Shown here: piece by piece, positions 9,619 to 37,370 of the stretch
Position numbering within the stretch: position 1 is the first letter of the stretch
How the letters are laid out: every line of letters starts with the position of its first letter
Virus record (IMG/VR): IMGVR_UViG_3300044825_000404
Coordinates: 1 to 52,032 of that record
DNA: 52,032 nt
Strand: one strand, 5' to 3'
Source: a virus
Position numbers and translations under genes: made by a program
Notes under the pieces: generated by a model
What the model saw: only the letters and a program-made list of their open reading frames with translations
Database searches by the model: none
What the model was told of the DNA's origin: nothing

Positions 9619-9840
9619 TCATTGTGTTTTCCGCCTGTTTGCCCACCTGTCATCCAACTCAGCAATGAAGCCGCACATAGCCTCCTTGCTGATGTTCAGA
9701 TCCGTGCAGGTTCGGTGGTAGAAGACGGATGCGATCAGGAACTTCGTCTGCCATTCGTCGTCCTTGTACTGTTTCATGAGTTCAAGGACTCGACCGACGA
9801 CAGGGAACAGTCTCTCCTCCATGTCGCGGTCGAAGTTCAT
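9619..9840 (-). CDS. Small helical protein, 73 aa, unknown function
   Basis: Starts at the ATG at 9840 with ribosome site GGAGG (8 bases) and overlaps the stop of the 143-aa gene by 4 bases (ATGA). The sequence is charged and helical (MNFDRDMEERLFPVVGRVLE, then FLIASVFYHRTCTDLNISKE), with two cysteines not arranged as a metal site. No family is recognised. Tight coupling with the gene before it supports expression as one unit. Confidence 0.65.
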   Translation of the reverse strand: MNFDRDMEERLFPVVGRVLELMKQYKDDEWQTKFLIASVFYHRTCTDLNISKEAMCGFIAELDDRWANRRKTQ

Positions 9841-10268
9841 GACTGGGCCTCCACTGAACGGCGTAGTCCGTTGCGCTTCATCAAGATCCGCGCCTCGGTC
9901 TGGTCGGGCATCCGCTTGGCCTCTTGCGGGGTGTTGCGGCTGAGTTTCAGCGCCCGAGTCAGTTTCCGGTCCGCGGCCTCCATGTACAGATCGATCTGGG
10001 AGGCGTTCTCGCTCGGCAGCAGAATGCGGTAGCCCGTAGAGGTACCCGTGAGGTACTTGCCCTGTCCTAGCAGCATATTGCGGACATAGTCCGTTGCGGC
10101 CAACTCGATCAGGGACAGACGGTCATAGACGGCCTTGGGCGCTGACTCCGGCATCTCGATCTCAAGCAACTCGTGGACGAGTTTGGTCGGGATGATGGAG
10201 CCGTACTCAAGCATTCCCATCTTCTGCAGGGTGGAGTAGAACTCCTTGTGGGCTTCGCGGTTAGACAT
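9837..10268 (-). CDS. Conserved-looking early phage protein, 143 aa, unknown function
   Basis: The start at 10268 overlaps the end of the 199-aa gene by 8 bases and has an AGAGG ribosome site. The N-terminal 50 residues (KEFYSTLQKMGMLEYGSIIP, then VHELLEIEMP) look like a small helical, possibly winged-helix domain. The middle (VRNMLLGQGKYLTGTSTGYR) looks like a beta hairpin, and the end is very basic. A DNA- or RNA-binding role is possible from the basic tail and from its coupling to the gene downstream of the RNA array. I do not recognise the family. Confidence 0.65.
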   Translation of the reverse strand: MSNREAHKEFYSTLQKMGMLEYGSIIPTKLVHELLEIEMPESAPKAVYDRLSLIELAATDYVRNMLLGQGKYLTGTSTGYRILLPSENASQIDLYMEAADRKLTRALKLSRNTPQEAKRMPDQTEARILMKRNGLRRSVEAQS

Positions 10269-10860
10269 GGCGCACCTCTGCCATAGCGCGACCGAACTTC
10301 GGGCGGAAGTCTCCGTAGCCGCAATACTTGGCGTGGAAGTCCACGATGCGCGTGATGCCGTCAGGGTCGATGATCTTGTCGTCGAACTCGATTTCGGTCT
10401 TAAACGACCACTGGTGAAAAATCGGGAACGCCTTGGCCAGACGCTTCTGCCCTTGAGGCAGATTCAGCATGATCCGGAAGGTTGGGTTCTTGACGATGTC
10501 CGTGACCGCTTTGACCTTGTCCATATCGCGGAAGGTCAACGGAATCTTCTCCTGCGTTACGAACAATGCGCCCCGGATGTCGGCCTTGCTCGTCTTCGCT
10601 ACGCGAAACGCTGTTGCGGCAATGGCCTCTGACAGCCAAGATGAGGGGACGTACACGCCTACTTTCTCATCGAAGTAAGACTTGCTCTCCATCTCCAGAT
10701 CGCGGTACTCAAGAAAGTCGTCGTCAGTGCGCTTGGTTTTCTTGTCGCTGATGGCCGACATCCTCTTGGCGAATCGGTTGAACCGATCCACTGTTTGAGG
10801 GTTGTTCATCAGCAGGGGGCTGACACCAGTGATGGTGATCTCTGCGTTTCTCATCGCCAT
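10261..10860 (-). CDS. Unknown protein with weak RAMP/Cas7-like features, 199 aa
   Basis: Directly downstream of the RNA hairpin array, with a ribosome site CCGGAG 8 bases before the ATG at 10860. The N-terminus MRNAEITITGVSPLLMNN is a predicted beta strand followed by a loop. The middle has VYVPSSWLSEAIAATAF. The C-terminus has a glycine-rich loop, YCGYGDFRPKFGR (residues 180-192), followed by a final strand. An N-terminal strand with a C-terminal glycine-rich loop recalls RAMP-fold RNA-binding proteins such as Cas7, but this is a loose resemblance, not a family assignment. The gene is otherwise a hypothetical of the kind found in phage early regions. It overlaps the 143-aa gene, so both are expressed together. 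Confidence 0.6.
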   Translation of the reverse strand: MAMRNAEITITGVSPLLMNNPQTVDRFNRFAKRMSAISDKKTKRTDDDFLEYRDLEMESKSYFDEKVGVYVPSSWLSEAIAATAFRVAKTSKADIRGALFVTQEKIPLTFRDMDKVKAVTDIVKNPTFRIMLNLPQGQKRLAKAFPIFHQWSFKTEIEFDDKIIDPDGITRIVDFHAKYCGYGDFRPKFGRAMAEVRHV

Positions 10861-10880: not shown

Positions 10881-10904
10881 AATAAAAGCGCCGAGGTTCC
10901 CGGC
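10881..10904 (-). terminator. Intrinsic terminator-like hairpin at the end of the RNA array
   Basis: On the minus strand the arms GCCGGG and CUCGGC (10890-10904) form 6 bp including one G-U pair around a 3-base loop. They are followed by GCUUUUAUU. It sits after the last copy of the RNA element and before the 199-aa gene, so it could release the array as a separate RNA or partly attenuate the downstream genes. Confidence 0.5.
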
Positions 10905-10909
10905 TCAGT

Positions 10910-10960
10910 AGGTCTAAGCGACCTGGGAAGCACACCAAGATGTGTTGCCCGCGTTGCTTA
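10910..10960 (-). repeat. RNA element copy 1 (last transcribed)
   Basis: Hairpin A pairs AGGUC with GACCU around GCUUA. Hairpin B pairs GGGCAACACA with UGUGCUUCCC, with two mismatches, around a 6-base loop. The tail word GCAACGC is at the 5' side in the RNA. It lies 6 bases from the terminator-like hairpin. Confidence 0.7.
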
Positions 10961-11010
10961 ACGATGCTGATCTTTCCGATGCTATGCGCTTCTATTCGCT
11001 TCCTAGCATT

Positions 11011-11060
11011 GGGTCTAAACGACCCGGAATGCCCCCGTAAGAGGCAGTCCGCGTTGCTTA
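11011..11060 (-). repeat. RNA element copy 2
   Basis: Hairpin A is a perfect GGGUC/GACCC with loop GUUUA. Hairpin B pairs GGA-UGCC with GGCA-UCC around an internal mismatch, with an extra U-G pair on top. Confidence 0.7.
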
Positions 11061-11120
11061 TCGCTTCAGTGCCATGCTCATCTCTTCTATGCTGTTTATT
11101 GCTCTTCGGTTCTCTTCAGT

Positions 11121-11170
11121 CGGGCCAAACGACCCGGCTAGTCCCCAGAAGAGACTGGCCGCGTTGCTTA
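11121..11170 (-). repeat. RNA element copy 3
   Basis: Hairpin A is CGGGUC/GGCCCG, with one U-G wobble and loop GUUU. Hairpin B pairs GGC-AGUC with GACU-GCC around one mismatch. Confidence 0.7.
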
Positions 11171-11231
11171 TCGTGACTTTTCATTACGGTGCACAGCACA
11201 TCAAACCAATGCGAAACGATGCTTTGCCTTT

Positions 11232-11280
11232 GGGCCTAAGCGACCCGGCTTGCACCCAGTGGACACAAGCCGCGTTGCTT
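11232..11280 (-). repeat. RNA element copy 4
   Basis: Hairpin A is GGGUC/GGCCC with one wobble and loop GCUUA. Hairpin B pairs GGCUUG with CAAGCC and continues with three wobble pairs that would be A-C mismatches on the other strand. Confidence 0.7.
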
Positions 11281-11332
11281 GTCGTTGCTCTGTCTTGCAC
11301 AACTGTGCTATCCGTTGCAGTGCTCTTCATTT

Positions 11333-11380
11333 GAGTCTTGCGACCCGAAAAGCCCACCGTGATGGGCTGTTCGCGTAGCA
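11333..11380 (-). repeat. RNA element copy 5 (first transcribed)
   Basis: The most divergent copy. Hairpin A is GGGUC/GACUC with one wobble and a GCAA (GNRA-type) loop. Hairpin B pairs GAA-AGCCCA with UGGGCU-UUC. The conserved word is changed to UGCUACGCG. Confidence 0.65.
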
Positions 11381-11437
11381 GAGCCGTTCTCTTCATTGAT
11401 TTGCTATTCACTGCATATCAGTGCATTGCTCTTCACT

Positions 11438-11453
11438 GGGAGCCGAAGCCCCC
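11438..11453 (-). other. UUCG-capped hairpin between the 77-aa gene and the RNA array
   Basis: On the minus strand GGGGGC and GCUCCC pair over 6 bp, with one G-U, around a UUCG loop closed by C-G, a very stable tetraloop. It starts 5 bases after the stop codon of the 77-aa gene. No U-run follows, so it is more likely a processing or mRNA-end barrier than a terminator. Confidence 0.5.
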
Positions 11454-11458
11454 GTTGA

Positions 11459-11692
11459 TTACTTAGCCTCCGTGGCTTTGGCGATGGCGGCGCGTGCGTT
11501 CTTGAGACTGATCTTTTCGCTTTCGGTCTCAAGACGAACCTTCCCCTGCTTGTCAGTCCAAGCGCGAAAGAAAAGGCCGTTAATCAGAGCGCCAACACTT
11601 CGCCCTTGGCTTTCTTTTGCTTTGGCGATAAGTTGGTCAATGTTGAACATGACAACGCGCTCAAGTCTTGAGGATGTGTATGCAGTGGTCAT
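11459..11692 (-). CDS. Small basic protein, 77 aa, unknown function
   Basis: The ATG at 11692 has an AGGAGG ribosome site 5 bases away, better than the internal ATG (MFNIDQLIAK, residue 15). The protein is helical and basic, with the core IDQLIAKAKESQGRSVGALI and then a short beta part (FFRAWTDKQGKVRLETES). It follows the 97-aa gene closely and precedes the RNA array. A nucleic-acid-binding accessory role is possible but unproven; no family recognised. Confidence 0.6.
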   Translation of the reverse strand: MTTAYTSSRLERVVMFNIDQLIAKAKESQGRSVGALINGLFFRAWTDKQGKVRLETESEKISLKNARAAIAKATEAK

Positions 11693-23537: not shown

Positions 23538-26500
23538 TTACCGCTTCGATTTTAGATAGTCAAGCGGAGATTTCAAAGCGGGTGGCGGAAGATCTTTTGG
23601 CCCCTTTGACCGCGCCCGATGCCGGATGTTGTGCATCATCTCGTACAACTTGTCGGTTCCGGCCTTGGTAGAACCGTTCCCGAGGGCGGAAACCACATCC
23701 GCCGGGAAGACAAACTCCCCGTCAGCAAGCCATGCCGGAATGTCGTCGGACTGGCCATCACCCTCCCCGGCAACGTGCTTCCCATCCTTGAAATCCTCGC
23801 GTCCGCCCTTGTGGGTGGGGAGGCCGCCAGACTTGGCCATCAAGGGCATGGGCATCCCGCCTTCCTTGGCCATCAGGGGCATCACATACCCGCCCTTTGC
23901 ATATCCCACAGGCTCTTCAACCTTTGGAGCCTCCGGAATGTTGAGGATCTTGTCGATCGGCTCTTCTTCCCCGTAGGAGTAGTAGGGTTCCGGAGCAGGG
24001 GTCTGTTGAGCCTGGGGCACACCCATGCGCTCGGCCAGGATGGCCGCCAGACGAGGATCAATGTTCTGCATCATTTCTTGTCTACCTACTTGCTCTTGAG
24101 CCTGTCGAAGTTGGGCCAGAGGGTCGATGTACTGTTGAGTGACTCGGGACGGCAACATCTGCGGGGGCAGGCGGCCATACTCCCCAGAGGTTCCTTCTAG
24201 GACGAAAGAAGGCAGTCCAGTCTGAACCGGGAAGTTCAAAGTGGGCTGACGAGTTGTAGCGGGCTGTTGAGGAGTCGGCTCACTCGTCAGTTGGCTTGTC
24301 AGTTGACTTGTGTCTTGTCCTGCTGAGGTAACTGCTTGAGTAGCAATCACCAACGCTTCATCTGGGTTCACACCCAACTTCGTGACCGTATTGACAACCG
24401 CATCAATGGCCGTCGTGGCGGGAGCGCCAGAGTTCACGGCAGAAGTCACGGCATTAGAAATGGCCGTGTTGACCGCCGTGGCCACATCCGTGCCCGTACT
24501 GACCGCCGTATCCACAGCAGTGGAAACCGCTGACTCGACTGCGCTAGAAGTTACCTGCTGAACGTCCGCTCCAGTTTCTACCGCCGTAGAAATTGCAGAC
24601 GAAACTGCGGTGGTGACCGCCGTATTGAGTGCTGTCTGCGTATCCGTCCCAGTGCTAACCGCAGTATCAACAGCAGTAGAGATTGCAGTGCTAACAGCGT
24701 TGCTCGTGGAAATGTTGACATCAGCCCCAGTTTGCGCCGCCGTAGAAACCGCAGAAGACACCGCGCTTGAAACCGCCGTGTTCACCGCGGTATCGGTGCT
24801 GACGCCCTGACTGACAGCGGCTTCCACTGCAGAGGTCACCGCAGAGTTCACCGCGGTAGAGACGGATGTGGCCGTATCGACACCAGTCGTCACAGACGCA
24901 ACCACTGCACCACTGACCGCAGAATCAACCGCCGTAGACACAGCAGTAGACACATTCGTGCCGGTGCTCACGGCAGTAGAAACGGCTGTGCTGACCGCAG
25001 AACTGACCGCGCTACTTACCGCAGTGCTGACATCCGTGTTCGTCGCCGTAGCGGCAGCCACCGCAGAATTAACTGCGCTGCTGACAGACGAGTCGATCGC
25101 CGTGCTGACATCAGTACCGGTATTGACGGCCGCAGCGATGGAGTTGTTGACCGCAGAAGAAACCGCTGAAGTCACCGCAGTGCTGACATTTGTTCCCGTG
25201 TTGGAGGCGGAGACAACAGCAGAGGAGACGGCAGAGTCAACCGCCGATGTCACGGCAGAACCAACCTCTACACCCGAGGCAATAGCCCCAGTCACCGCAC
25301 TCGTCACAGCGCCGGAGACTGACTTATCAATCACCGATCCGGGATCAGCCCCCGTGTTGACGGCAGTAGAAACGGCGTTGGAGACTGAGTTGCTGACCGC
25401 AGTAGAGACATCCGCGCCAGAGTTCACCGCCGCATTAACGGCACTGGTCGTGGCACTCTCTACAGCCGCAACAACATCCGTCCCGGTTTGAACTGCGTTG
25501 TTGACCGCAGCAGAAACTGCCGTTGAGACAACCTGACCTACATCTGTCCCTGTGGACAAGGCTGTGGAGATGTCCGTCTCAAGGTTCGCCAGATTTGGGA
25601 ACTGAGCCTCAAAGAACATCTGCTCAAGGTTCTTCTGCTCCTGAGTTTTTTCAGCGGTGGCGGTCTGTTGAATCGGCTGCTCCTGCGCCATAACGCTAGG
25701 CGCGGGCTCAATAGATACCGGGCTTGGGGCTAACACAGGTTCAGCCACAGGCTCCGGCACAGGGGCTGGCACAGGGGCTGGCGCAGGAGAAGGAGCAGTA
25801 GAAGCAGCGGGAGCAGGAGAAGGAGCGGGGGCGGCCTCAACTGGAGGGGCGAATGTTTGCTCAGGCGCCGGTGCGCGGAACTCAGACTCCGCCTGGACAA
25901 TTTGATTGACGATGCCAACCGCTTCAGGGATCGACAGCCCTGCATCAATAGCGGCATCTGTCGCGGCGTTGGCCACAGTCAAAATATCAGCACCCGCACT
26001 AGAAGCCGCAGCGACGGCAGATGTCACGGCATCCACAATCGAACTGGTCGTGTCTGCGCCAGACAACACAGCCGACCCAACCGCCGCGCTCACAGCCGAG
26101 TTCACCGCCGTAGAAACATCAGAACCTGCGCTGATGGCACTGCTTACGGCGCTGTTGACAGAACTCGTGATTGCATCAGCGACACTTGCTCCGGTATCAA
26201 CAACACTGGATACAGCACTGTTGACCGCGCTAGTCACTGCGCTTTGAACATCCACACCAGAACTGACTGCGGATGCAACCGCAGAACTTACCGCAGAGTT
26301 GATGGCCGACCCGGCGTTAGATCCTGAATCAATCGCACTGGTCACGGCACTTGAAACTGCGCCACCAATGGCTGCAGATGGTTCAGCGCCAGAAACTATG
26401 GCCGAATTTACTGCGCTATTGACAATACTTCCGACAACCGAGGTCGCAGACTCTCCGGACTGCACAGCGGTCGAAACCGCATCAGAAACAGAGGAGGAGA

Positions 26501-29500
26501 TGGTGTTGCCAACATCCGCTCCTGAAGAGATGCCAGAACTGATTGAAGAGGCAACATTTGAAGCAACGCTTTCAACAGTAGAACCGGTTGCAGCCTGCTC
26601 TGTAAAGCCCAGTTCTCGATAGGTTGTCGGTACGCCCTTCTCATCAAAGAACGCCACCATGTCGGGCGTTGCGCCAGGAGGCAGAGAAGTCGGCCGCTCG
26701 CTTACTTGCGCCCGATCGCCAACGATCTCAGAGATCCGCTCCTCCTTGGCGATCTGACGATCAAGGTCCGTTTCGGTGGCGACCTTCTCGGCGGCAGGAG
26801 TAAATCCAATCTGCCCCGCAGAGCCGGTGATGAGTTCAGGACCGACCGCCTGAACATCCACAGTTGAGGGCTGATAAGTGATGGCCGTTGGGCCACCCTC
26901 AAAAGTCATCTGCGTGGGAGTGCTACGACCCAGGAAGATCAGGTCAGCAAAGTCTCCGCTCTCATTTGTCTTGGTCTGCTGAATAGCATCAGAGAGTCGC
27001 GCATCAGTGGTAGCCGCATCCACCATGGCCGTAAGCGCACCACTTGCGATGGTCGCTTCTGCAAGCGTTCGCGGCAGGCCCTCATCCCAGTTCTTGTTCA
27101 GCGCCAGATTGCTGATGATCTTCGCGCTGCCTTCTTCAGCGTTCTCACTGGCAACCTCGCCCAGGTAGCGGGTGAGGATGCCCTTACCCTTGGTCTCCAG
27201 GAAGTCTTTGGATGCCTGACCGAGCAGGGCAACAGCGTTGCCTGTAGAGCCACCGGCAATCTTGGCTTCAACCGACAGAGCGCCAGGAATGAGTCGTTGA
27301 GCCGCAGCAGAGGCAAGGCCGGAAAGACTGGCAACAGAGCGCCCAATCTTCAGCACCTCCTCGTTGCTTAGGCCCATCCGCATGGCCTCGTCCATCGTGC
27401 TTGCCGCAGTCTGGGCGCCATGGACGCCCGCGTTGGTCAGGATGGCCGCAGCCTCCCGAGCAAGCATTCCACCCCCAATCATCCTTGCGCTTGCCATGGC
27501 ACCACCACCGGCCAGGACTGTCGGAGAGGTCTCAGCAAGGAAGCCCGCCGCCTGCATCGGGTTGACACCGTACTGGTACAGAGTCGTGAAGAACCCACCA
27601 CCCGCAGCACGGATGGCAAGGTTCATGTCATCACGGTTCTGCTTGTAGACATCCGACAGAGACCTGTCGAGTTCATTGGCGTATGAAGCAAACCCTGCGC
27701 TGATGTCGCCCTGCTCACCTCGAACCAGATCAGCAATAGTGAACGGGGCGGCAGCCACAGAAGCCGCGCCCTTGACTGCTTGCTTCAGGACATCAGACCC
27801 AATCTGGGCAACCTCTGCAGGTTGCGTCCTACCACCCATGGCCTGCCACTCTTCAAAGGTTGGAGGCGCAATTTTGTTGCCCGCGGAGTCGGTCGGGACA
27901 AACTTGTCGATGTAGTCCAGATAGCGATCCATGTCGTTGAATCGCTTGCCCGTGGCCACAAAGGTCTGATCAGGCTTCGGAGGCGCTACCTTCTCAACCT
28001 CCTGAACTGTTGGCACACCACCCTCACCGGTGACCATCTGTTGAGCGGCCGCCGTGTAGTCGATTGCGGGCTCAGATGGCTGAACAGGTGGCTTGGTCGC
28101 CGTCTTGTCGGGCGTGAATCCCGTCGTAAGAGAGTCAACCGGAGCGCCCTCCATGCCCGTAGCGGCAGCAGAAAAGTCTGTCTGCGCCGTCTCAATCGGA
28201 GCAGTTTCTCCACGAAGAGGAACATTCTTCAGATAGGCAGTTGCCTCTCTGGTGTCAGGAACAACCGCGCCACGCCCAGAACCTGCTGCTGCAGCAGGCT
28301 CAGAGATCGTGATCTTGGGAATGCCCATCTGCAAGATGGGAATGCCGGTTGCTCTCGCGGTTGCAACGTCAATGGCATCAGGGATCCGATACTCCTTGCC
28401 CTGATACATGAAGGTGCCGGTCAATCCATCATTGAACGCCTTCATGCCCGCCTGATCAATACTTCCGGCGCTGCTGTAATCAGGTAGAGAAGCGACGCGT
28501 TGCTGCTCCATGTAAGCCTTATTGGCCTGCGATAGTTCGTCTTCCCCAGTGCGAGAGACGACATAGATGTTTCCAGAACGAGCCGGGAACTCAAAAGTTC
28601 CATAGCCGCGAGATGAGGCAAGAGCACTTGCTTCATCAAGCGTTTTGACATCCATGCTCGGATCAATCTGAAGAGCCTGATCTCGGCGGATGGACTCTGT
28701 TACATCCTTCTCAGTAGGAAGAGCGCCTTGAGGGAAGGCTTGACCTGCCTTTTGGCCCTCTGCGATCAGTTCTCTAGTTGGAGCCTGAGACGCATAGTCA
28801 ACGGCATTAAACAGATCAATCGCCGCGCCGATGAGTTGCGACGGATCCGCACCAGATCGAACCAAATTCAGCATCACCGCAGACTTGGCGGCGATCGAAG
28901 CATTCGGAGAGTCAGCCAACTGGCCAACAGCGTTGATGATGCTGTTGACGTTTGGCTTACTAGAGAACACTTCAGCAGCAAGATTGGCTGCGCCCTGGAT
29001 CTGATTCGGCGTGAAGCCAAGGTTCTTCAGGCCAGTCTGAGCGCCCGCACTAAGACCACCGACAAGAGCACCAACCCCCAGGCCACTCGTGTCTCCAGTT
29101 GCGATGGCTGATGGAATAGCCCCAATGAGTCCTTTCGTCGCTCCGCCCAGAATTTCGCCCGTAAGTCCAGGTCCAACCGCGGTCTGCACAGCGCCACTGG
29201 CTTGGGAAGCCAACTGGCCCGCTCCACCGCCTAGACCGCCAACAACAATCGACTTCAGGAGATCAGAGCCTGATGCGCCAGACGCAACACCACCAAGACC
29301 GCCAAGAACAGCGCCCCCGGCGATGGATCCTCCCATGCCAGTACCAAAGCCAAGAGCCTCGCCAATACCTGGGGCTCCCATGGTCGCACCAATAAAAGCC
29401 GCCGCGAGTCCAACCGGCTTCCGCCAATCTTCAGACTCGTCATACTTGTCAATGCCAAGAATTGTTCCGTTGGCATCCAAATTGATGATGTAGCCGCTAT

Positions 29501-32500
29501 CACCGCCAGTCTTGAGGTTCAGAGACTGACCAGTGATGTTGCCATTTGTGTCCGTGCTGACGGTCTGCTCAAATGCGGTGCCCGCAGGAGCAAAAGATGA
29601 GTCCGTATTGGTCTTGCCGGTTGTTCCGGCAATCTGATAGCCCTGAACACCTCCGAACGGGTCGCCTAATGCGATGATTGAATACTTGCCGAATTGCTGA
29701 GGAACCGCTTGTGGGCCCGCCTCTCCCGCATCCATGAATGCGTTCTGGCCGGTAATGCTTGACTTTGCGAAGTTGATGGCGTCTTGCAAAGAGAGAGTCG
29801 GAGCGCCCTGGCGATCCTCTCGCGCACCATAGTTGACGTAGTGCCTCTTCGCTTCGGCCTCTGTATCAATGCCCGCCTGTCCCAAATCGGGGTTCAGACG
29901 GACATATTCCTTCCAGTCAAATCCAGGTGGGACGGCTGAGAAGTTTTCCTCGCGGAACCCTGATTCTCCTGTGTACGGGTCGGAGAAGAATGGGCGCAAA
30001 TCTTGGCCCCAGTCATCAACCCCTTGAGCAGGAGCAGGAGCAGGAGCGGGAGCAGGTGCGGGGGCAGGTGCGGGGGCAGAGGTCTGTAGGCCATACTGCC
30101 TCATCAAGCCGCGAACGGTTGTCTCTGGAACTCTGAAGGTTTCAGCAGTAAGAGCAACCGCCTGATCAACCGGCATCCCTTCTGAGACCCAAGACTGCAA
30201 GAGGTCAAAAGCCTCCGACTCTGAGCCCTGAAGAGAAAACTGAGGCGTAGACCCTTGGGCGGCATCCAGAGCGCCTGTCGTCGTAACTTGGCCAGAGGTG
30301 TCTGCGGCTTGATCTACATCTGTAGAGGTCAACCCTGCGGCAGTAAGCGCCCCCGTGGTTTGGGCATCCTCAAGAGACTGATCAACTTCTGTAGCCTGAC
30401 CAGTTAGGTCGCCAGTGTCGATGAAGGCGCCGCCAGTAACAACATTGCCGCCTCCAGGAAGAGCGCCAGTAGTGACTCCGCCGGTCTCCCCGATGGTGGA
30501 GCCGGTCCCTCCAACGGTGCGCTTCTCTGGTTGGTTGTAGTCGTTACCAAGAACAGCCCACTCAGATGAAGGATCAAAGAGGCTCTTCGCCGCATCCGAA
30601 CCTTCCGGCTCCCAATCTTCAAGACCAAAGTTTACAAACTCACTTACGCCCGGAAGCGACATGAGTCTTTGGTTGTAAGCATTAGCGGCTTCTTCTTCGC
30701 CCTTCCTAGCAAACCCTTGTGTGACTATTTTTAGTTCTTTGCCAAGCGCGTTTACCTGAGCCGCAAAGTTCTTAGTCCAATCATAAAGTTGGTCTGCCGG
30801 AACACCCCATCCCAGATACGGATCAAGCGCAACAAAGTCAGCATTTGAATTTCTGATCTCATCAAGCAACTGCTGATCTGTTGCTTTGCCTTGGAATACA
30901 GGGTAAGGCGAAATAACAACACCCGCCCTTTGGCCCTTGGATTGCGTATCTTTAACCTTCTTGACTAGGTCTGAGCCTACAGGGCTATGAGGGTTCCAAA
31001 ACAACTCGTCAGAGATAACAACTTCATTCCCGCGCTGAAAAATTGCATCAGGAGACTTAATTGATTTGCTCGTTGGATCTTTTGTGGCATTTGATCCCGT
31101 AACCCAACTATTTGCATCTCCAAAGTTTGATAGCAAAGGCCCAGAGCCCGTCTTGTTAAAGAAGTCAGTAACTGTAAAGTTAGTCCCAAGAGCGCGGTTC
31201 CACAAGTTGACCGCATCCTGCGGCCTCATTCCTTGTTGAACAACCCAATCAAGCCCACGCTGCGTTGCCACCGCATCGTTTGCGCCGCCTTGATAGATGT
31301 ATTGCTTGAACCATTCCGGCGAACCGGCCACCGGAGTAGAAGCCGCTTGAGAAAGCGCAGAGCCAGTAATACCTGTCTGACCTGCGGCGCTCTCGGTGCT
31401 AGAAACATCTCTGCGCTGATTGTCTGCAACAGTGAGACCAGAATCCTTCTTGGCTAGAGTCGTTTGACTCAAGGTCTGGCCGATCTTGTCAGCCATCAGG
31501 CGACCAAATTCAGCGTTTTGATGCACCCCGTCAAGCAGGGAGCCTGCAGGGATCCCAACGCTACGAACATCAACAAATGGCAGGTTGTACTTCTGCGCCA
31601 GTTGCTGAATGCCTGCGTTGATCTGATCGGCAACCGTCGCGCTCTCACGGGTCAAATACCCGGCGATGTTGCCGCCGATGGAGTCCGCACCACCAAAGAA
31701 CGGAGACACCCCAACAAGAACAGGCGTTGATCCGTTGCGTTGAGCAATCTGGATCATCTGCTCAATGTTGCTCAGGGACTTGTTGGCATCCCCAAGTTTG
31801 ATGGCGTCTGCCGCTCCATAACGAAGCACAACCTGATCAGGTCGATTGGTTGAGATGTAGTTCTCAAAACTGCCGTAGTCTGTGTTCCCGGTCAGGGCAT
31901 CTTGAGAAGTCTGCCCGCCAGTAGCGACGTTGTTGACAACACCGCCCGTGTAGTCGGACAGAACACCTTCAAGAGAGTTGCCGCGAGAAGTATCCGCGCT
32001 ACCGTCCATGCGGTAGCCCAATACAGAACTGATGGAGTCGCCAAAGACGGTTGTCTTGAATGGCGAAGTTTCTCCAGATGCCCGGTAGTAGTCGTTGACA
32101 TTGAATTGCGTCCCCAGAGCCCGATTGAACTCGGTGACCGCCTGCATGGGGGTCCAACCCTTCTGCTTGGCATATTCAATAGCCCGTTGAGTAGCGGTGG
32201 CGTCATTTGCGCCACCCGCATACATATACTGCTTGAACCACTCAGGGGTGCCTTCCGTGGGCCCACTAGGTGCAGCCATCTGCGTTACGCTGCCCAAAGC
32301 ACCAATGTTTTCATTTGGAAGACCGATTGCATCTTCCATGAAGGACGGCACAGAACTGACATTGATGGGAGGCTGAATGTTTGCAGTCACCCCTCTCGCA
32401 GCAGGCAAACCTCCGACGCTTGTCAGCGCAGATGTGCTCAATCCCGAAAGATCTTGTCCGATGTCAATCGAATCATCCTCCGGTATGTCCAGAGGAGACT

Positions 32501-32546
32501 GATAGCCGTCCATGCGGTCTTCGTATTGATTGATGGGCAGTGCCAT
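23538..32546 (-). CDS. Giant multidomain virion protein, 3002 aa
   Basis: One uninterrupted 9-kb gene. A 55-residue helical module occurs twice (residues 100-156 and 409-466: PEWFKQYMY/PEWFKQYIY .. RALGT). The first precedes an SGNH/GDSL hydrolase (about 161-360: Ser171 in GDSIS, Gly210 in ATGG, DGVH with D339/H342). The second precedes an alpha/beta, possibly glycosidase-like domain (470-650: VVISPYPVFQG, NADFVALDPYLGWG, VNFGLEDWEP). Then come Pro-Ala linkers, DWKEYVRLNPDLGQAGID near 890, long glycine-zipper membrane-like segments, 22/26-residue repeats (2008-2205 and 2332-2705) and SDDIPAWLADGEFVFPADVV near the C-terminus, a motif of phage virion proteins. It probably acts during cell-envelope passage and DNA delivery. 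SGNH block III has GAAD in place of the usual GxxN. Confidence 0.75.
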   Translation of the reverse strand: MALPINQYEDRMDGYQSPLDIPEDDSIDIGQDLSGLSTSALTSVGGLPAARGVTANIQPPINVSSVPSFMEDAIGLPNENIGALGSVTQMAAPSGPTEGTPEWFKQYMYAGGANDATATQRAIEYAKQKGWTPMQAVTEFNRALGTQFNVNDYYRASGETSPFKTTVFGDSISSVLGYRMDGSADTSRGNSLEGVLSDYTGGVVNNVATGGQTSQDALTGNTDYGSFENYISTNRPDQVVLRYGAADAIKLGDANKSLSNIEQMIQIAQRNGSTPVLVGVSPFFGGADSIGGNIAGYLTRESATVADQINAGIQQLAQKYNLPFVDVRSVGIPAGSLLDGVHQNAEFGRLMADKIGQTLSQTTLAKKDSGLTVADNQRRDVSSTESAAGQTGITGSALSQAASTPVAGSPEWFKQYIYQGGANDAVATQRGLDWVVQQGMRPQDAVNLWNRALGTNFTVTDFFNKTGSGPLLSNFGDANSWVTGSNATKDPTSKSIKSPDAIFQRGNEVVISDELFWNPHSPVGSDLVKKVKDTQSKGQRAGVVISPYPVFQGKATDQQLLDEIRNSNADFVALDPYLGWGVPADQLYDWTKNFAAQVNALGKELKIVTQGFARKGEEEAANAYNQRLMSLPGVSEFVNFGLEDWEPEGSDAAKSLFDPSSEWAVLGNDYNQPEKRTVGGTGSTIGETGGVTTGALPGGGNVVTGGAFIDTGDLTGQATEVDQSLEDAQTTGALTAAGLTSTDVDQAADTSGQVTTTGALDAAQGSTPQFSLQGSESEAFDLLQSWVSEGMPVDQAVALTAETFRVPETTVRGLMRQYGLQTSAPAPAPAPAPAPAPAPAQGVDDWGQDLRPFFSDPYTGESGFREENFSAVPPGFDWKEYVRLNPDLGQAGIDTEAEAKRHYVNYGAREDRQGAPTLSLQDAINFAKSSITGQNAFMDAGEAGPQAVPQQFGKYSIIALGDPFGGVQGYQIAGTTGKTNTDSSFAPAGTAFEQTVSTDTNGNITGQSLNLKTGGDSGYIINLDANGTILGIDKYDESEDWRKPVGLAAAFIGATMGAPGIGEALGFGTGMGGSIAGGAVLGGLGGVASGASGSDLLKSIVVGGLGGGAGQLASQASGAVQTAVGPGLTGEILGGATKGLIGAIPSAIATGDTSGLGVGALVGGLSAGAQTGLKNLGFTPNQIQGAANLAAEVFSSKPNVNSIINAVGQLADSPNASIAAKSAVMLNLVRSGADPSQLIGAAIDLFNAVDYASQAPTRELIAEGQKAGQAFPQGALPTEKDVTESIRRDQALQIDPSMDVKTLDEASALASSRGYGTFEFPARSGNIYVVSRTGEDELSQANKAYMEQQRVASLPDYSSAGSIDQAGMKAFNDGLTGTFMYQGKEYRIPDAIDVATARATGIPILQMGIPKITISEPAAAAGSGRGAVVPDTREATAYLKNVPLRGETAPIETAQTDFSAAATGMEGAPVDSLTTGFTPDKTATKPPVQPSEPAIDYTAAAQQMVTGEGGVPTVQEVEKVAPPKPDQTFVATGKRFNDMDRYLDYIDKFVPTDSAGNKIAPPTFEEWQAMGGRTQPAEVAQIGSDVLKQAVKGAASVAAAPFTIADLVRGEQGDISAGFASYANELDRSLSDVYKQNRDDMNLAIRAAGGGFFTTLYQYGVNPMQAAGFLAETSPTVLAGGGAMASARMIGGGMLAREAAAILTNAGVHGAQTAASTMDEAMRMGLSNEEVLKIGRSVASLSGLASAAAQRLIPGALSVEAKIAGGSTGNAVALLGQASKDFLETKGKGILTRYLGEVASENAEEGSAKIISNLALNKNWDEGLPRTLAEATIASGALTAMVDAATTDARLSDAIQQTKTNESGDFADLIFLGRSTPTQMTFEGGPTAITYQPSTVDVQAVGPELITGSAGQIGFTPAAEKVATETDLDRQIAKEERISEIVGDRAQVSERPTSLPPGATPDMVAFFDEKGVPTTYRELGFTEQAATGSTVESVASNVASSISSGISSGADVGNTISSSVSDAVSTAVQSGESATSVVGSIVNSAVNSAIVSGAEPSAAIGGAVSSAVTSAIDSGSNAGSAINSAVSSAVASAVSSGVDVQSAVTSAVNSAVSSVVDTGASVADAITSSVNSAVSSAISAGSDVSTAVNSAVSAAVGSAVLSGADTTSSIVDAVTSAVAAASSAGADILTVANAATDAAIDAGLSIPEAVGIVNQIVQAESEFRAPAPEQTFAPPVEAAPAPSPAPAASTAPSPAPAPVPAPVPEPVAEPVLAPSPVSIEPAPSVMAQEQPIQQTATAEKTQEQKNLEQMFFEAQFPNLANLETDISTALSTGTDVGQVVSTAVSAAVNNAVQTGTDVVAAVESATTSAVNAAVNSGADVSTAVSNSVSNAVSTAVNTGADPGSVIDKSVSGAVTSAVTGAIASGVEVGSAVTSAVDSAVSSAVVSASNTGTNVSTAVTSAVSSAVNNSIAAAVNTGTDVSTAIDSSVSSAVNSAVAAATATNTDVSTAVSSAVSSAVSTAVSTAVSTGTNVSTAVSTAVDSAVSGAVVASVTTGVDTATSVSTAVNSAVTSAVEAAVSQGVSTDTAVNTAVSSAVSSAVSTAAQTGADVNISTSNAVSTAISTAVDTAVSTGTDTQTALNTAVTTAVSSAISTAVETGADVQQVTSSAVESAVSTAVDTAVSTGTDVATAVNTAISNAVTSAVNSGAPATTAIDAVVNTVTKLGVNPDEALVIATQAVTSAGQDTSQLTSQLTSEPTPQQPATTRQPTLNFPVQTGLPSFVLEGTSGEYGRLPPQMLPSRVTQQYIDPLAQLRQAQEQVGRQEMMQNIDPRLAAILAERMGVPQAQQTPAPEPYYSYGEEEPIDKILNIPEAPKVEEPVGYAKGGYVMPLMAKEGGMPMPLMAKSGGLPTHKGGREDFKDGKHVAGEGDGQSDDIPAWLADGEFVFPADVVSALGNGSTKAGTDKLYEMMHNIRHRARSKGPKDLPPPALKSPLDYLKSKR
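24432..25553 (-). repeat. Coding tandem repeats, block 2: 22- and 26-residue units
   Basis: Fifteen consecutive in-frame units, each starting with TGTDV, SGADV or a close variant: three of 22 residues, eleven of 26, one of 22, giving exactly 1122 bases. Units are built of SAVx, TAVx and NAVx quartets; the longer unit has one extra quartet. The regular Ala/Val at every fourth position suggests amphipathic helices separated by Gly-Asp turns. Confidence 0.9.
25932..26525 (-). repeat. Coding tandem repeats, block 1: nine 22-residue units
   Basis: Nine exact 22-residue (66-base) units, from SGADVGNTISSSVSDAVSTA down to AGADILTVANAATDAAIDAG, 594 bases in all. Copies differ at many positions but never in length. 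A Pro/Ala-rich linker (about residues 2225-2300) separates this block from block 2. Confidence 0.9.
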
Positions 32547-32547
32547 A

Positions 32548-32793
32548 TCAAGTTCCCGGATTGATAGCGCCGACTAGGGCCTGAGCCCACTCTTGCCAGT
32601 CGTCAAAGTTGTAGGGGCTTGGAACACCTTGGTTGGTGAAGACATCAATGGCCATCAGGCCCGCCCCCCAAGACTTCCAGTCCACCGTCGGGCCTGGAAT
32701 CTGAAGTTGCTGCTCTGCGTACAACTCGCACATCAGAGACGCCCATGACTCAAAGTCGTGATACCTCGGGTCATAGATCAGCCCGATGCTCAT
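32548..32793 (-). CDS. Small virion-operon protein, 81 aa
   Basis: The sequence is built on regularly spaced Trp and small motifs (ESWASLMCELYAEQQLQIPG, DWKSWGAGLMAIDVF, NFDDWQEWAQALVGAIN), suggesting a compact helical protein. It overlaps the hub-like gene by 4 bases (ATGA) and runs to one base before the giant protein gene. This size and tryptophan pattern recur in structural operons of related phages, perhaps as an assembly factor. Function not known. Confidence 0.6.
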   Translation of the reverse strand: MSIGLIYDPRYHDFESWASLMCELYAEQQLQIPGPTVDWKSWGAGLMAIDVFTNQGVPSPYNFDDWQEWAQALVGAINPGT

Positions 32794-35700
32794 GTGCTGT
32801 ACCCGCGAACATCACCGATGTCGGCATCCACGATTACCTTACCCGCCTGATAGTTGCCATCCACGACGTTTGACACGAACTTCAAGCGCAACAAGCGCCG
32901 CTGTTCCTTCATGTCAATTTTGCCTGTCGTTGGACTAAAGGTATATGGGTTTGAGACCTGATCTTGCTCTTTCGGGTAGGGACGACCCACGACATACAAG
33001 TCCATGTCGCCCTGCTGCACGAAGTCAGGCTCCACCCGCTCCAGGCGCAGCCACCGGTTCTCGCCCACCGGAGAGGGCTGAGAGGGGCCGCCTGCGATCA
33101 GACCCAGGTCAGAAGTCGTGAACGAACTCTCGATGGCCAGGACGTTGGTGCCCTGAACGACATTCGTGCCGTACTCGTGCTGCCACAGGGAGACCTCGTT
33201 CGTATTGTTCTCCTCCCACCCTGCGTTGATGGGAAAGCGGAACACCTGCGAGAAGTACCCGGCAGAACGACGACCACCAAGAGCCTCGCCTAGGTCGTAC
33301 CAAGTGTTCTCTCGGATGTTGTAGATGATCGCGTCGTTGCACTCGGTAGAGTCGCCGCGGGGGTAGAACCACCAGATCTCGCCGAACCGGGGAACCTTCG
33401 TAGCCCAAACCTTCTGCGACTGCGAGTAGTTCAGGTTGTCGAAGAAGTGGTTCTGGTTCATGTCGTTGGGGATCTCTTTGACCACACCGTTGTACAACAT
33501 GAACCGGTCCACGCCGATCCAGAAATAGATACCGTCGTACTCAATAACGCACTGGCTTGACAGGATCGAGGTCTGACTGGAGATGATGTCGTAGCGCCAA
33601 TACTGTGGAGGCGTACCCGTCCCGCCGATGTAAGACACCCGGATCAGGCTGTCCAGGCTCCAGAACAGGCCAGAAGGCGCGTTGGAGCCGCCTCGAACGG
33701 GAAGACCCTTGACGATCTTGCCGGTGGCCACGTTCGTTTCGTTGGCGTCTGGCGAGTTCCAGTCGGTCGGATCTCCCGCAGAACAGTTCTTGATCAGGCC
33801 GTCATTGCCGTACACAAACACATACGGATGCAGGGCCACAACCCCGCCAGAGACGCTGATCACGCTACCCGTAGGATTCGCACCTCCGGTGTCTTTCAGG
33901 GGATAGACATCCGATCCGGTGATGTCGCCGTACAGAACAGGCGTGTTGATCGTGCTGTCGATCTGAGCGAGGTTCTGGCCAGGATGAGCCAACAGCAGGT
34001 TTTCACCCCCGGTGACGCTGTATAGACCATCGAACTGCCACAGGTTGTTCGGACTGGCCGTGAACTGCTCATCCACAGTGGCCACATCAATTGAGAACCC
34101 GTTGCTGTTGTAAGTTGCAGATACCGGGACGGAGAACCCAGAACTTTGGTTGACCGACAGAACCGTGAACTGGAACCCTGAACTGGCGATTGTGAAGGTC
34201 ACCGGGATTGAGAATCCTCCGGCGCTTCCGAGAGATGCCACGGGTACGGAGAAACCGGAACTTGAGTACACCGTGTTGACCACGACCGAGAAGCCGCTAC
34301 TGGTCACCACCGTGGCCACAGGGAACGAGAAGCCGGTGCTGTTGTAAACCGCCGTGACAGGCACGACGAACCCTGCACCAGTGCCGCCGATGTCCGTAGC
34401 GTTGGCTGACAGGATGTTGGTGGCGATGTAGCCGCGGCCGCGACTGGTGATGGTTACCGCAGTAACAGCCCCGCCGGATACGGTGATGGAGGCTTGAGCA
34501 CCAGTCCCAGAGCCGCCGATCAGCGGGACATTCGTGTAGGTCACCGTAGCATTGATCGTGGCCACAGGCACCGAGAAACCGCTTCCCGTACCGCCGATGC
34601 TTGACGCTAGAGCGGACAGACTGTCACCGGGTTGATAGCCGCTACCGCGATCAACGATGGTCACGGTCGTGACAACGCCGCCCGCAACCGTGATGTCTGC
34701 AGTCGCATCAATCCCAGAACCAGTCAGAGAGGTCAGCGAAACGCCAGTGTAAGTGCCGTTCGTGTATCCAGAGCCGCCAACGACCGTCCCCAGGGTGGCA
34801 ATCTCATTACCTGTGTATCCAGAGCCGCCGGTGATCGCTCCAAGCGTCTGCACACCGTTACCAATCGCGGATGCCGCGGCGCTCATGGTGTTGGCAACCG
34901 TGTATCCGTTGCCCTTGGTCGTGATCGTGACCGAGGTCACCGTGTTGCCAGAAACAACAATGGTGGCCTTTGCACCAGTACCGGACCCGCCTGTCAGAGA
35001 GACATTGGTGAATGTGCCGTTGGTGTAGTTAGAACCACCCGTGATCGCGCCGATCGTGTCGATGCCGTTGACAAACCCACCAAGATCAGAAGCGGCCGCG
35101 CTCAAGGTGTCCGAAGCGGTGTAGTTGATGCCTCGATCAGTCAGGGTGACCGATGTCACCGTCCCAAGCGCCACCACAATAGTGGCCTTGGCGCGGGATC
35201 CAGTGCCCCCAGTCAGGGACACGTTCGTGTACGTCCCGTCCGTGTAGTTGGTTCCACCAGTCGGAGCGTTGAGTGTGTTGATGCCGTTGCCGATCAGCGC
35301 AGCAGAACAACTCAGGCTGTCGGCCACGGTGTAGTTCTGACCAGGGTTGGTCACAGTAACTGCCGTCACTGCGTTTCCAGAGACCACGACAGTCGCTGTA
35401 GCACCAGTACCAGTACCACCCGTCAGGGGAACCGCGGTGTAGGTGCCGTTCGTATAGTTCGATCCGCCGGTGATGGCACCAAGAGTTGCGACCCCGTTTG
35501 TGAATCCGCCTAGGCTTGCAGAGAGACTGTCTCCGATGGCGTAATTCACCCCAGGCGCAACGAGTTGGACGGCAGAGACAGAGTTGTTGGAGACGATGAT
35601 GTTCGCCGTCGCGCCAGTGCCAGACCCACCGGTCAGGGGTGTGTCTCGATAGATTCCAATCGCGCTGATCGTGGTGGACGCGACCGACTGGCTCCTATTG

Positions 35701-37370
35701 ATGTTGTAGGTGCCCGCGCCACCAGTGCCGGTTCCAAGAGCAGTGATGACCGTGTCATCCGCAACGCCTGCGCCGAAGATGGTCTGCCCTACAGCGAACG
35801 TGCCGGTGATCGTCCCGCCTACGGTCAGAACAGTTCCAGAGATGGAGGATGCGCTTCCGGAGGCTGTCGAAGAGTTGGTGTAGAACCCACCACCCGTGAT
35901 ACCGCCAAGGGACGCGATCACGCCAGACACCCCGCCGATGTCTTCTGCGGGAGCCGACAAGACATTACCAACAGCATATCCACTGCCGTTGTTCGTCAGC
36001 GTAACCCTTCCAACACCTTCTGTGGTCAGCGTTGCAACATCACACTGGAATCCGGTACTGGTTGCGACGGAGTTGATAACGATGAACAAGCCCGAACCAG
36101 ACCCTCCAACATCAGAAACATTGGCCTGCAGAACTTGCCCGAAGGCATACCCAACCCCGCCATAGACAAGCGTTGCGGAGATGACAGTGCCGCCAGACAC
36201 GACGAGCGTTGCTCGAACACCAGTTCCGCTGCCGCCCGTCAATGGAACATTGGGGTAGGTTCCATCAACATAACCAGAGCCCCCGGTGCTCACAAAAAGA
36301 GAAGTTACTCCCTTGCCAATACTGTTGACCGAGCAACTCAGCACATCGTTGACGGTGTAGTTGTTCCCGCCAAAAGTCACCGCGACAGACACCACATTCC
36401 CGCCAGAAACGGTGATGGTGGCCAGTGCTCCGGTTCCAGTTCCTCCGGTCAGAGCGACATTGGGGAACGACCCGTTGGTGTACCCGCTTCCGCTGACGAT
36501 GTTGTCAACCGTGGCGATGCCGTTCTGCAGGACTTCCACTGTCCCCACAGCATTGATGCCGCTACCGCCCGTGAAGGACACATTGGTGTAGGTTCCAGGC
36601 GTGTACAGAGAGCCAGGAACCAAAAGGCCGTAGGTGTTGATGATGCCGGTCAGGCCGCCGATGTTGGCAGGCGTTGCGCTCAGGACATCCCCAACGGTGT
36701 ACCCCACGCCACGATTGGCCGCCACAATGCCCGTCACGGCCCCGCCAGAGACCGTGATGTTCGCCGTTGCCCCACTTCCTGTGCCGCCGGTCATCGGAAC
36801 GCTGAGGTAGGTCCCGTTCGTATACAGAGAACCGCCCGTGATTGAGCCGTAGGTCTGCACTCCATTCCCAATCGCAGAAGGCGCACAGGACAAGGTATCC
36901 CCAGGCAGGTAGCCGTTGCCGCCATCTGTAAGGGTCACGGAAGAGACCGCGTTCGCGGTGACCACAATCGTGGCCTTAGCGCCGAACCCAGATCCACCGG
37001 TCAGATCGACATTGGTAAAGGTTCCGTTGGTGTACTCAGATCCACCGACAAGCGTGTTCAGCGTGAGGATCGGGCCTGAGATGCTGAAGTTTGTGATGCC
37101 TGCGCCGATGCCTTCGTTCGTGATCGGAAGCACCTGCAAGCCATCAGACCATCCATTGAAGACGCTTGTGAAGCCATCCGCCGGATTGACGTAGATGCCC
37201 CGAGAAGGCCCGCTCAACGCATCCGTGATCTGACGGTATCCGCCGATCTTGCGGGGACGACCCCGCTGAAAGCGAACCCACTGGCCATCGGTGTAGAACT
37301 CCTTGTCAAAGAGAGTTCCATCCCGCTGAATGCCGGACTTGGTGTCGAGCGCGAATACCTTCTTGGTCAT
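32790..37370 (-). CDS. Neck/tail hub-type protein carrying a beta-repeat array, 1526 aa
   Basis: The N-terminus (KSGIQRDGTLFDKEFYTDGQ, then WVRFQRGRPRKIGGYRQI) and the C-terminal 430 residues (YFWIGVDRFMLYNGVV; IWWFYPRGDSTECNDAIIYN) form a beta-propeller-like tail protein of the kind placed at the podovirus tail hub (compare P22 gp10 or T7 gp12). Between them, residues about 105-1000 are some ten to twelve copies of a 55-75-residue beta unit (GGSNYTNGTYT.V.LTGGTG ... GYTVGDTLSA..IGG). A run of 13-14-residue SSGFSVPV repeats (about 1002-1097) follows. The repeats likely project from the tail as surface-binding loops. Confidence 0.7.
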   Translation of the reverse strand: MTKKVFALDTKSGIQRDGTLFDKEFYTDGQWVRFQRGRPRKIGGYRQITDALSGPSRGIYVNPADGFTSVFNGWSDGLQVLPITNEGIGAGITNFSISGPILTLNTLVGGSEYTNGTFTNVDLTGGSGFGAKATIVVTANAVSSVTLTDGGNGYLPGDTLSCAPSAIGNGVQTYGSITGGSLYTNGTYLSVPMTGGTGSGATANITVSGGAVTGIVAANRGVGYTVGDVLSATPANIGGLTGIINTYGLLVPGSLYTPGTYTNVSFTGGSGINAVGTVEVLQNGIATVDNIVSGSGYTNGSFPNVALTGGTGTGALATITVSGGNVVSVAVTFGGNNYTVNDVLSCSVNSIGKGVTSLFVSTGGSGYVDGTYPNVPLTGGSGTGVRATLVVSGGTVISATLVYGGVGYAFGQVLQANVSDVGGSGSGLFIVINSVATSTGFQCDVATLTTEGVGRVTLTNNGSGYAVGNVLSAPAEDIGGVSGVIASLGGITGGGFYTNSSTASGSASSISGTVLTVGGTITGTFAVGQTIFGAGVADDTVITALGTGTGGAGTYNINRSQSVASTTISAIGIYRDTPLTGGSGTGATANIIVSNNSVSAVQLVAPGVNYAIGDSLSASLGGFTNGVATLGAITGGSNYTNGTYTAVPLTGGTGTGATATVVVSGNAVTAVTVTNPGQNYTVADSLSCSAALIGNGINTLNAPTGGTNYTDGTYTNVSLTGGTGSRAKATIVVALGTVTSVTLTDRGINYTASDTLSAAASDLGGFVNGIDTIGAITGGSNYTNGTFTNVSLTGGSGTGAKATIVVSGNTVTSVTITTKGNGYTVANTMSAAASAIGNGVQTLGAITGGSGYTGNEIATLGTVVGGSGYTNGTYTGVSLTSLTGSGIDATADITVAGGVVTTVTIVDRGSGYQPGDSLSALASSIGGTGSGFSVPVATINATVTYTNVPLIGGSGTGAQASITVSGGAVTAVTITSRGRGYIATNILSANATDIGGTGAGFVVPVTAVYNSTGFSFPVATVVTSSGFSVVVNTVYSSSGFSVPVASLGSAGGFSIPVTFTIASSGFQFTVLSVNQSSGFSVPVSATYNSNGFSIDVATVDEQFTASPNNLWQFDGLYSVTGGENLLLAHPGQNLAQIDSTINTPVLYGDITGSDVYPLKDTGGANPTGSVISVSGGVVALHPYVFVYGNDGLIKNCSAGDPTDWNSPDANETNVATGKIVKGLPVRGGSNAPSGLFWSLDSLIRVSYIGGTGTPPQYWRYDIISSQTSILSSQCVIEYDGIYFWIGVDRFMLYNGVVKEIPNDMNQNHFFDNLNYSQSQKVWATKVPRFGEIWWFYPRGDSTECNDAIIYNIRENTWYDLGEALGGRRSAGYFSQVFRFPINAGWEENNTNEVSLWQHEYGTNVVQGTNVLAIESSFTTSDLGLIAGGPSQPSPVGENRWLRLERVEPDFVQQGDMDLYVVGRPYPKEQDQVSNPYTFSPTTGKIDMKEQRRLLRLKFVSNVVDGNYQAGKVIVDADIGDVRGYST
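34080..34365 (-). repeat. Short coding repeats SSGFSVPV, about eight copies
   Basis: Residues about 1002-1097 of the hub-type protein repeat a 13-14-residue unit: STGFSFPVATV, SSGFSVVVNTV, SSGFSVPVASL, AGGFSIPVTFT, SSGFQFTVLSV, SSGFSVPVSAT, SNGFSIDVATV. The alternating hydrophobic pattern suggests a beta-solenoid or stacked hairpins. Confidence 0.8.
34400..37060 (-). repeat. Array of 55-75-residue beta-rich coding repeats
   Basis: Ten to twelve divergent copies of the unit GGSxYTNGTYTxVxLTGGSGTGA with a following VSG..VT.V......G.GYTVGD.LSA stretch. At DNA level they are similar but not identical, and one copy is interrupted by an inserted Ser/Thr/Gly segment near residues 505-570. Copy number is likely to vary between related phages. 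Confidence 0.8.

Follow-up and report, generated by a model that had tools for sequence, protein, structure and literature searches.

The intergenic array described here is very probably the guide-RNA (vrRNA) array of a VIPR (Viral Interference Programmable Repeat) system. It lies in a 52,032-nucleotide stretch of viral DNA (IMG/VR record IMGVR_UViG_3300044825_000404), referred to below as the window, and occupies a minus-strand gap of 600 bases that separates a 77-aa ORF (11461-11692) from a 199-aa gene. We assign the locus to VIPR, and its repeats to the vrRNAs, because the adjacent gene encodes a Vipr homologue with a RAMP fold, a vap1-like gene stands beside it, and the repeats are composed of pentamer tracts followed by structured tails. 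VIPR was described in April 2026, and the preprint's main text presents these systems as phage-encoded RAMPs whose vrRNAs carry a structured 3′ tail after 9-16 repeats of YNNGG (GGY/NN) (bioRxiv 2026.04.26.720920, PMC13142463). According to the same text, vrRNAs bind double-stranded DNA via their NN dinucleotides, one target base being skipped per dinucleotide, and thereby repress transcription; most of the targets belong to competing phages and satellites (PMC13142463). The object is of a kind known since 2026 and departs from the published core in scaffold and in tail structure.

A sequence-only reading of the window had reported five tandem copies of a covarying two-hairpin RNA, apparently undescribed, and had guessed among other things at the RNA half of a two-part system. 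That guess was apt, as the protein half is the next gene, vipr. The other guesses (an antitermination relay, a decoy RNA or a packed structural RNA) found no support. The array is unmatched in Rfam at the gathering threshold and even at E ≤ 1, and a DNA similarity search of a phage collection returned no homologue of it. "Undescribed" therefore holds for Rfam but not for the literature, where the class appears as VIPR vrRNAs (PMC13142463). The features of the locus are collected in Table 1.

Table 1. Features of the putative VIPR locus, in order of transcription; copy numbers are those of the sequence-only reading.
Feature	Positions	Strand	Description
vrRNA 1 guide tract	11380..11434	-	11 G-M-A-N-N pentamers; NN: GA AT CT AT GT TA AA AT GA CG CT
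vrRNA 1 tail	11331..11379	-	copy 5; GCTACGCGA, hairpin B, hairpin A with GCAA tetraloop; covariance model E = 1e-10
vrRNA 2 guide tract	11279..11333	-	11 pentamers; NN: AT GA CT AC TA CA GT AG GA AC AA
vrRNA 2 tail	11231..11278	-	copy 4; covariance model E = 1e-11
vrRNA 3 guide tract	11168..11232	-	13 pentamers; NN: AG AA TC TC TT TT GT GT CC AT AA AC AA
vrRNA 3 tail	11120..11167	-	copy 3; covariance model E = 4e-14
vrRNA 4 guide tract	11058..11122	-	13 pentamers; NN: CT GA CC GA AT CA TA GA GA TG CT GC AA
vrRNA 4 tail	11010..11057	-	copy 2; covariance model E = 3e-14
vrRNA 5 guide tract	10958..11012	-	11 pentamers; NN: AT AG GC TA GC TA TC AA CA TC AA
vrRNA 5 tail	10909..10957	-	copy 1; covariance model E = 2e-12
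Terminator-like hairpin	10890..10904	-	GCCGGGAACCTCGGC then GCTTTTATTA, in the interval between last tail and vipr start; weak (5 such sites vs 3.2 expected)
vipr	10261..10860	-	199 aa; RAMP-like, phrog_4652, glycine-rich loop; homologue of SUSP1 Vipr
vap1-like accessory gene	9837..10268	-	143 aa; overlaps vipr 3′ end

Structure of the vrRNA tails

Five two-hairpin elements lie on the minus strand within 10909-11379, with starts 101, 111, 110 and 100 bases apart. A covariance model trained on 23 tails from the window and its relatives yields exactly five hits in the 52-kb window (E = 1e-10 to 3e-14) and none in five control loci that lack a vipr gene. All five hits are on the minus strand; the copy number and the strand proposed from sequence were correct. 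Hairpin B had been said to vary while staying paired, and it does: across the window and its nearest relatives, 23 distinct tails (one of them misparsed) form 219 of 253 pairs, against a mean of 162 and a maximum of 184 in shuffles. Pair 6 flips between A-T and T-A (12:10), and pair 4 adopts several pair types. The two-hairpin score threshold is reached by 84% of 100 distinct tails from the wider clade and by 21% of shuffles. The stem of hairpin A is swapped wholesale in relatives with its pairing kept (GGGTC/GACCC, GGTGG/CCACC, GATCC/GGATC, GAAGT/ACTTC). With these covariance hits and pairing beyond that of shuffles, the claim of a two-hairpin RNA stands.

Single-sequence folding and RNAalifold favor a different arrangement, a single long hairpin that spans both and pairs GC-AC with GT-GC. 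We rejected this fold and prefer two hairpins because the long-hairpin extension consists of invariant bases and is broken, as judged by eye, in two relatives (L148 and L169), where hairpin A is kept by compensatory changes.

The conserved sequence given for the element, GCAACGCGG, is exact in four copies, and the 5′-most copy carries GCTACGCGA in its place. This same copy holds the one GNRA loop that had been noticed, a GCAA tetraloop. The A-C mismatch reported for copy 1 is real and is replaced by G-C in the near-identical contigs L005 and L006. Single-copy matches to the first DNA pattern, which account for most of L015-L094, were discarded as chance; such matches proved real only in contigs with several of them.

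The tails also differ according to their position in the array. In the window and in L007, L008, L009, L011 and L012, hairpin A of the 5′-most tail is capped by the GCAA tetraloop and the other units have loops of the G-Y-T-T-A type. The last unit of the same arrays has an AGGTC/GACCT stem, which in the window is hairpin A of the vrRNA 5 tail. Position-specific tails may be a mark of processing order. Upstream, a UUCG-capped hairpin (GGGGGCTTCGGCTCCC; 11438-11453, minus strand) is located between the 77-aa ORF and the first guide tract.

Guide tracts

The linkers between the tails have a 5-base periodicity, absent from the sequence-only reading, that forms the guide part of the array and is the key to its function. 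Each linker is a tract of 11-13 G-(C/A)-A-N-N pentamers in phase with the GCAAC of the tail. In the window, position 1 is G in 93% of pentamers, position 2 is C or A in 85% and position 3 is A in 78%, and positions 4 and 5 are nearly uniform. The period-5 G-statistic of the linkers is 183, compared to a maximum of 40 across 5000 shuffles, with signal at 5 and its multiple 10 and at no other period. Because the linkers are strictly pentameric when counted back from the tails, the vrRNA unit comprises ~100 bases, with a variable stretch of 11-13 pentamers and, after it, a constant tail. The element of about 50 bases originally proposed was therefore too small, as the tract before each tail belongs to the unit. 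This layout corresponds to that of VIPR, with 9-16 tandem pentamers of three conserved and two hypervariable positions (11-13 per unit here) and a structured, invariable 3′ tail after the tract (five here, with covariation).

Arrays of close relatives (L007-L012) exhibit unit turnover. First and last guides are common to several contigs, and the middle ones are replaced or deleted. In L009, an apparent deletion fuses the tail of unit 1 to a later tract.

The vipr and vap1-like genes

The vipr product is a RAMP homologue with the G-loop expected of a Vipr. phmmer aligns its residues 6-196 with SUSP1 Vipr in the PDB (36pp_D, E = 1.1e-19), and its AF2 model (pLDDT 93.7) matches RAMPs of CRISPR systems, including type VII Cas7 (8z4j, E = 1.7e-5, probability 1.00), Csm3 and others. 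The G-loop, G-G-F-G-D-F-R-P-x-F-G-R, is near invariant. Searches of Pfam and NCBIfam gave chance-level matches only, and in PHROGs the product matched only a family of unknown function.

The gene that overlaps the 3′ end of vipr is identified as vap1-like because its family adjoins vipr in 40 of the clade's 42 loci and its profile also hits the vipr-adjacent gene of Felixounavirus (E = 2.5e-9). The locus thus has the vap accessory gene that accompanies vipr in VIPR systems. The protein is unmatched in Pfam, NCBIfam and PHROGs, and its structural model has no significant match.

Elsewhere on the minus strand, the window encodes a Ref-like RecA-dependent nuclease (PF16786; 12088-12465) ~650 bases upstream of the array, and Vibrio phage 1.266.O also has such a nuclease near its vipr locus. 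Two very large minus-strand ORFs are found at 23538-32546 (3002 aa) and 32790-37370 (1526 aa).

Scaffold and Vipr clade

In place of the GGY triplet of the VIPR description, the window and its clade have G-(C/A)-A (GMA). This is compatible with VIPR membership because the preprint's main text states that all VIPR types use GGY/NN "or a related consensus" (PMC13142463). The GMA/NN scaffold goes beyond the text of the preprint; given that wording, we do not claim it as new to its authors.

Scaffolds were compared in 80 vipr loci, and a maximum-likelihood tree was built from 59 Viprs. Where the Vipr is at least 37% identical to that of the window, 41 of 42 loci have GMA/NN tracts, the exception being clipped by the contig end; where the identity is at most 34%, all 36 loci have GGY/NN tracts. 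Shuffled sequence contains no GMA or GGY tract. Mapped onto the tree, the GMA and GGY labels require one change, on a single branch with support of 100/100. The tract counts and this single split reveal that RNA scaffold and protein clade co-segregate, which is what reading of the triplet by the protein would predict. Listonella phage phiHSIC and Vibrio phage 1.266.O fall in the GMA clade and the Felixounavirus wV8 in the GGY clade. With respect to the type II system of SUSP1, the vap family is common to the Felixounavirus locus, yet the window Vipr belongs to a separate clade in our own tree of 59, which is not the type tree of the preprint's authors.

Several other loci deserve mention. GCANN vrRNA arrays are present, without annotation, in the long-published genomes of phiHSIC (AY772740, 4573-4929) and Vibrio phage 1.266.O. 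The depositors of the Escherichia phage wV8 genome labelled as DR_4 a set of repeats that flank the vipr-vap pair, interspersed with GGTNN vrRNA tracts. In one contig (L192) whose vipr belongs to the GGY clade, the opposite strand bears a strong tract of GMA type (score 93.6).

A predicted target for guide 3

For guide 3, IMG/VR was scanned under the published 1-nt skip rule with the central eight dinucleotides as seed, which gave 49 hits. In the best of these (L272), the ten guide bases that flank the seed match as well, giving 13 of 13 dinucleotides and 26 of 26 bases; nine further contigs match at 25 of 26 and two at 24 of 26. Each of the 12 sites runs antisense to a conserved motif, RLVFIGTTNKEEF, in a VapE-like replication protein (around V-F-I-G-T-T-N-[KN]-[ED]-[ED]-F-L), and in every one of them the base skipped is the third of its codon, the wobble position. 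The VapE domain PF05272 is found in the target proteins of all 11 records tested (E < 1e-59). The 30 seed hits outside the VapE family match at most four of the ten flanking bases. Furthermore, the guide 3 match spans exactly the interval between two tails, with the first NN right after the preceding hairpin A, so that the borders of the guide are fixed independently. The AC of the tail's GCAAC is unmatched in the best hits.

A search of GTDB genomes with 11 guide 3 dinucleotides returned two sites, both in VapE-like ORFs (L324 and L325). Guide 3 does not fit just any VapE, since no additional site turned up in 300 genomes of Bacilli with a relationship to the Facklamia hit; a version with a 2-nt skip gave none there. 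The window itself contains neither a self-target for its guides nor a PF05272 domain.

Guide 3 is the only one of the five with a DNA match of this kind, with a 1-nt skip at the codon wobble. Scans requiring 16-18 exact bases found no target for guides 1, 2, 4 and 5, and at up to three mismatches these guides have no site in 12 records, most of which contain the guide 3 target. Seed hits of guide 4 (one contig family) and of guides 1, 2 and 5 were rejected, as their flanks are unsupported. A comparison of 124 guides of the clade with the loci collected gave nothing above the skip-0 and skip-2 controls. We regard guide 3 as a predicted anti-vapE guide with a convincing predicted target, a reading of sequence matches that rests on one guide and one homologous gene family. 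This target, too, goes beyond the preprint's text.

The four guides without a target raise the question of whether the GMA/NN guides of this VIPR array follow another rule, for example with a different skip length, in which case the vapE match would be a coincidence. The preprint's text also shows the 1-nt rule, with the skip at the codon wobble, for GGY/NN systems only (PMC13142463). We consider such a rule unlikely in view of a perfect 13-dinucleotide match under the 1-nt rule, with the skip at wobble positions and in a replication gene of mobile elements. At one in four per base, only ~5e-5 chance matches of the ten flanking bases would be expected over all seed hits.

Comparison with other systems

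The locus shares with the type II VIPR of SUSP1 a single RAMP-like Vipr gene with a neighboring vap, encoded by a phage, and ~100-nt RNAs consisting of a pentamer guide tract and a conserved structured 3′ tail. Under the 1-nt skip rule, each also has a guide that fits a different mobile element and skips codon wobble positions. The scaffold differs (G-M-A/N-N here, G-G-Y/N-N in SUSP1), as does the tail, with two consecutive hairpins here and a pseudoknot reported in the preprint's text for SUSP1. The five vrRNAs are all upstream of vipr in the window, whereas those of SUSP1 flank the gene pair. The wV8 homologue is also distant, the window Vipr being only ~29% identical to it. Closer relatives are phiHSIC (ORF22) and Vibrio phage 1.266.O, members of the same clade with ~49% identical Viprs, GCANN tracts, a vap homologue and two-hairpin tails. 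Their arrays, however, are mainly between vipr and vap, their hairpin sequences differ, and the proteins are recorded as hypothetical.

The position of the array bears on whether it is a cis-acting operon RNA, an antitermination relay or vipr leader, and not a set of guides. It is directly 5′ of vipr with the terminator-like hairpin in between, and its transcript could regulate vipr. This position is not conserved, however, since the phiHSIC and Vibrio phage 1.266.O arrays are placed differently, as noted above, and wV8 has arrays on both sides of the pair. Neither the pentamer periodicity nor a 26/26 target match is expected of a leader, and a cis-acting role appears very improbable.

The order of elements, tandem structured RNA repeats followed by a terminator-like hairpin and a ~200-aa ORF, also resembles a type III toxin-antitoxin system such as ToxIN, with a tandem RNA antitoxin, a terminator and a toxin gene. 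The protein family and the RNA logic are different, and the locus is not a member. Its protein is a Vipr/RAMP homologue and not a ToxN-type nuclease, which in effect refutes the idea; hypervariable NN positions on a fixed 5-base scaffold are unneeded by an antitoxin, and neither PADLOC nor Rfam gives a match. We find this explanation scarcely credible. That the array acts as DNA (iterons, pac or partition sites), as direct repeats in a phage intergenic region <3 kb from terminase genes might suggest, has a negligible probability given the strand-specific wobble pairs, the compensatory changes in both hairpins, the variable NN positions and the presence of such arrays beside an RNA-binding RAMP in scores of phages.

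Returning to the VIPR assignment, the locus can also be compared with class 1 CRISPR-Cas systems, in which Cas7/Csm3 RAMPs form filaments on crRNA. The protein fold, the combination of repeated handle and variable guide, and the regularly interrupted pairing with the target are alike. Unlike CRISPR loci, the array has no cas1/cas2 and no palindromic direct repeats with contiguous spacers, and its guide information is non-contiguous, two bases in five. The scan of neighboring proteins found no cas genes, and the repeats do not qualify as a CRISPR array.

Proposed mechanism and implications

By analogy with the SUSP1 work, we infer that the array is expressed and processed to ~100-nt RNAs, that these form RNPs, and that the RNPs bind DNA and cause repression. 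In the most likely scheme, processing of the minus-strand transcript releases five vrRNAs. Copies of Vipr would oligomerise along each tract, one per pentamer, gripping the GMA triplets; each NN dinucleotide would pair with the DNA target, every third base being skipped, and the tail would act as a handle. The Vipr-vrRNA complex is predicted to bind matching double-stranded DNA and block transcription there, aided by the vap1-like protein. Loaded with guide 3, it would repress the replication helicase/primase gene (vapE) of rival phages. Because the wobble base is skipped, synonymous mutation of the target would give no escape.

The preprint's text describes GGY/NN guides (PMC13142463), to which GMA/NN adds. 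The scaffold switches to GMA/NN exactly at a split in the Vipr tree, and a comparison between the clades should therefore locate the residues that read the scaffold. Side-by-side use of two orthogonal RNA-guided DNA binders would also become conceivable. The decoded guide 3 would extend the 1-nt skip rule, as an independent example, beyond the systems for which the preprint's text reports tests by its authors, and it names a concrete rival, phages with a VapE-like replication gene. We judge it an evenly balanced proposition that the GMA/NN clade is a distinct VIPR branch in which protein and scaffold changed together, a second "alphabet" of one shared non-contiguous code, joined to a two-hairpin handle that also differs, through which environmental and marine phages silence the VapE-type replication genes of their rivals in a manner insensitive to synonymous target mutation. 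Phages sequenced long ago, such as phiHSIC, hold an unannotated system of the VIPR type.
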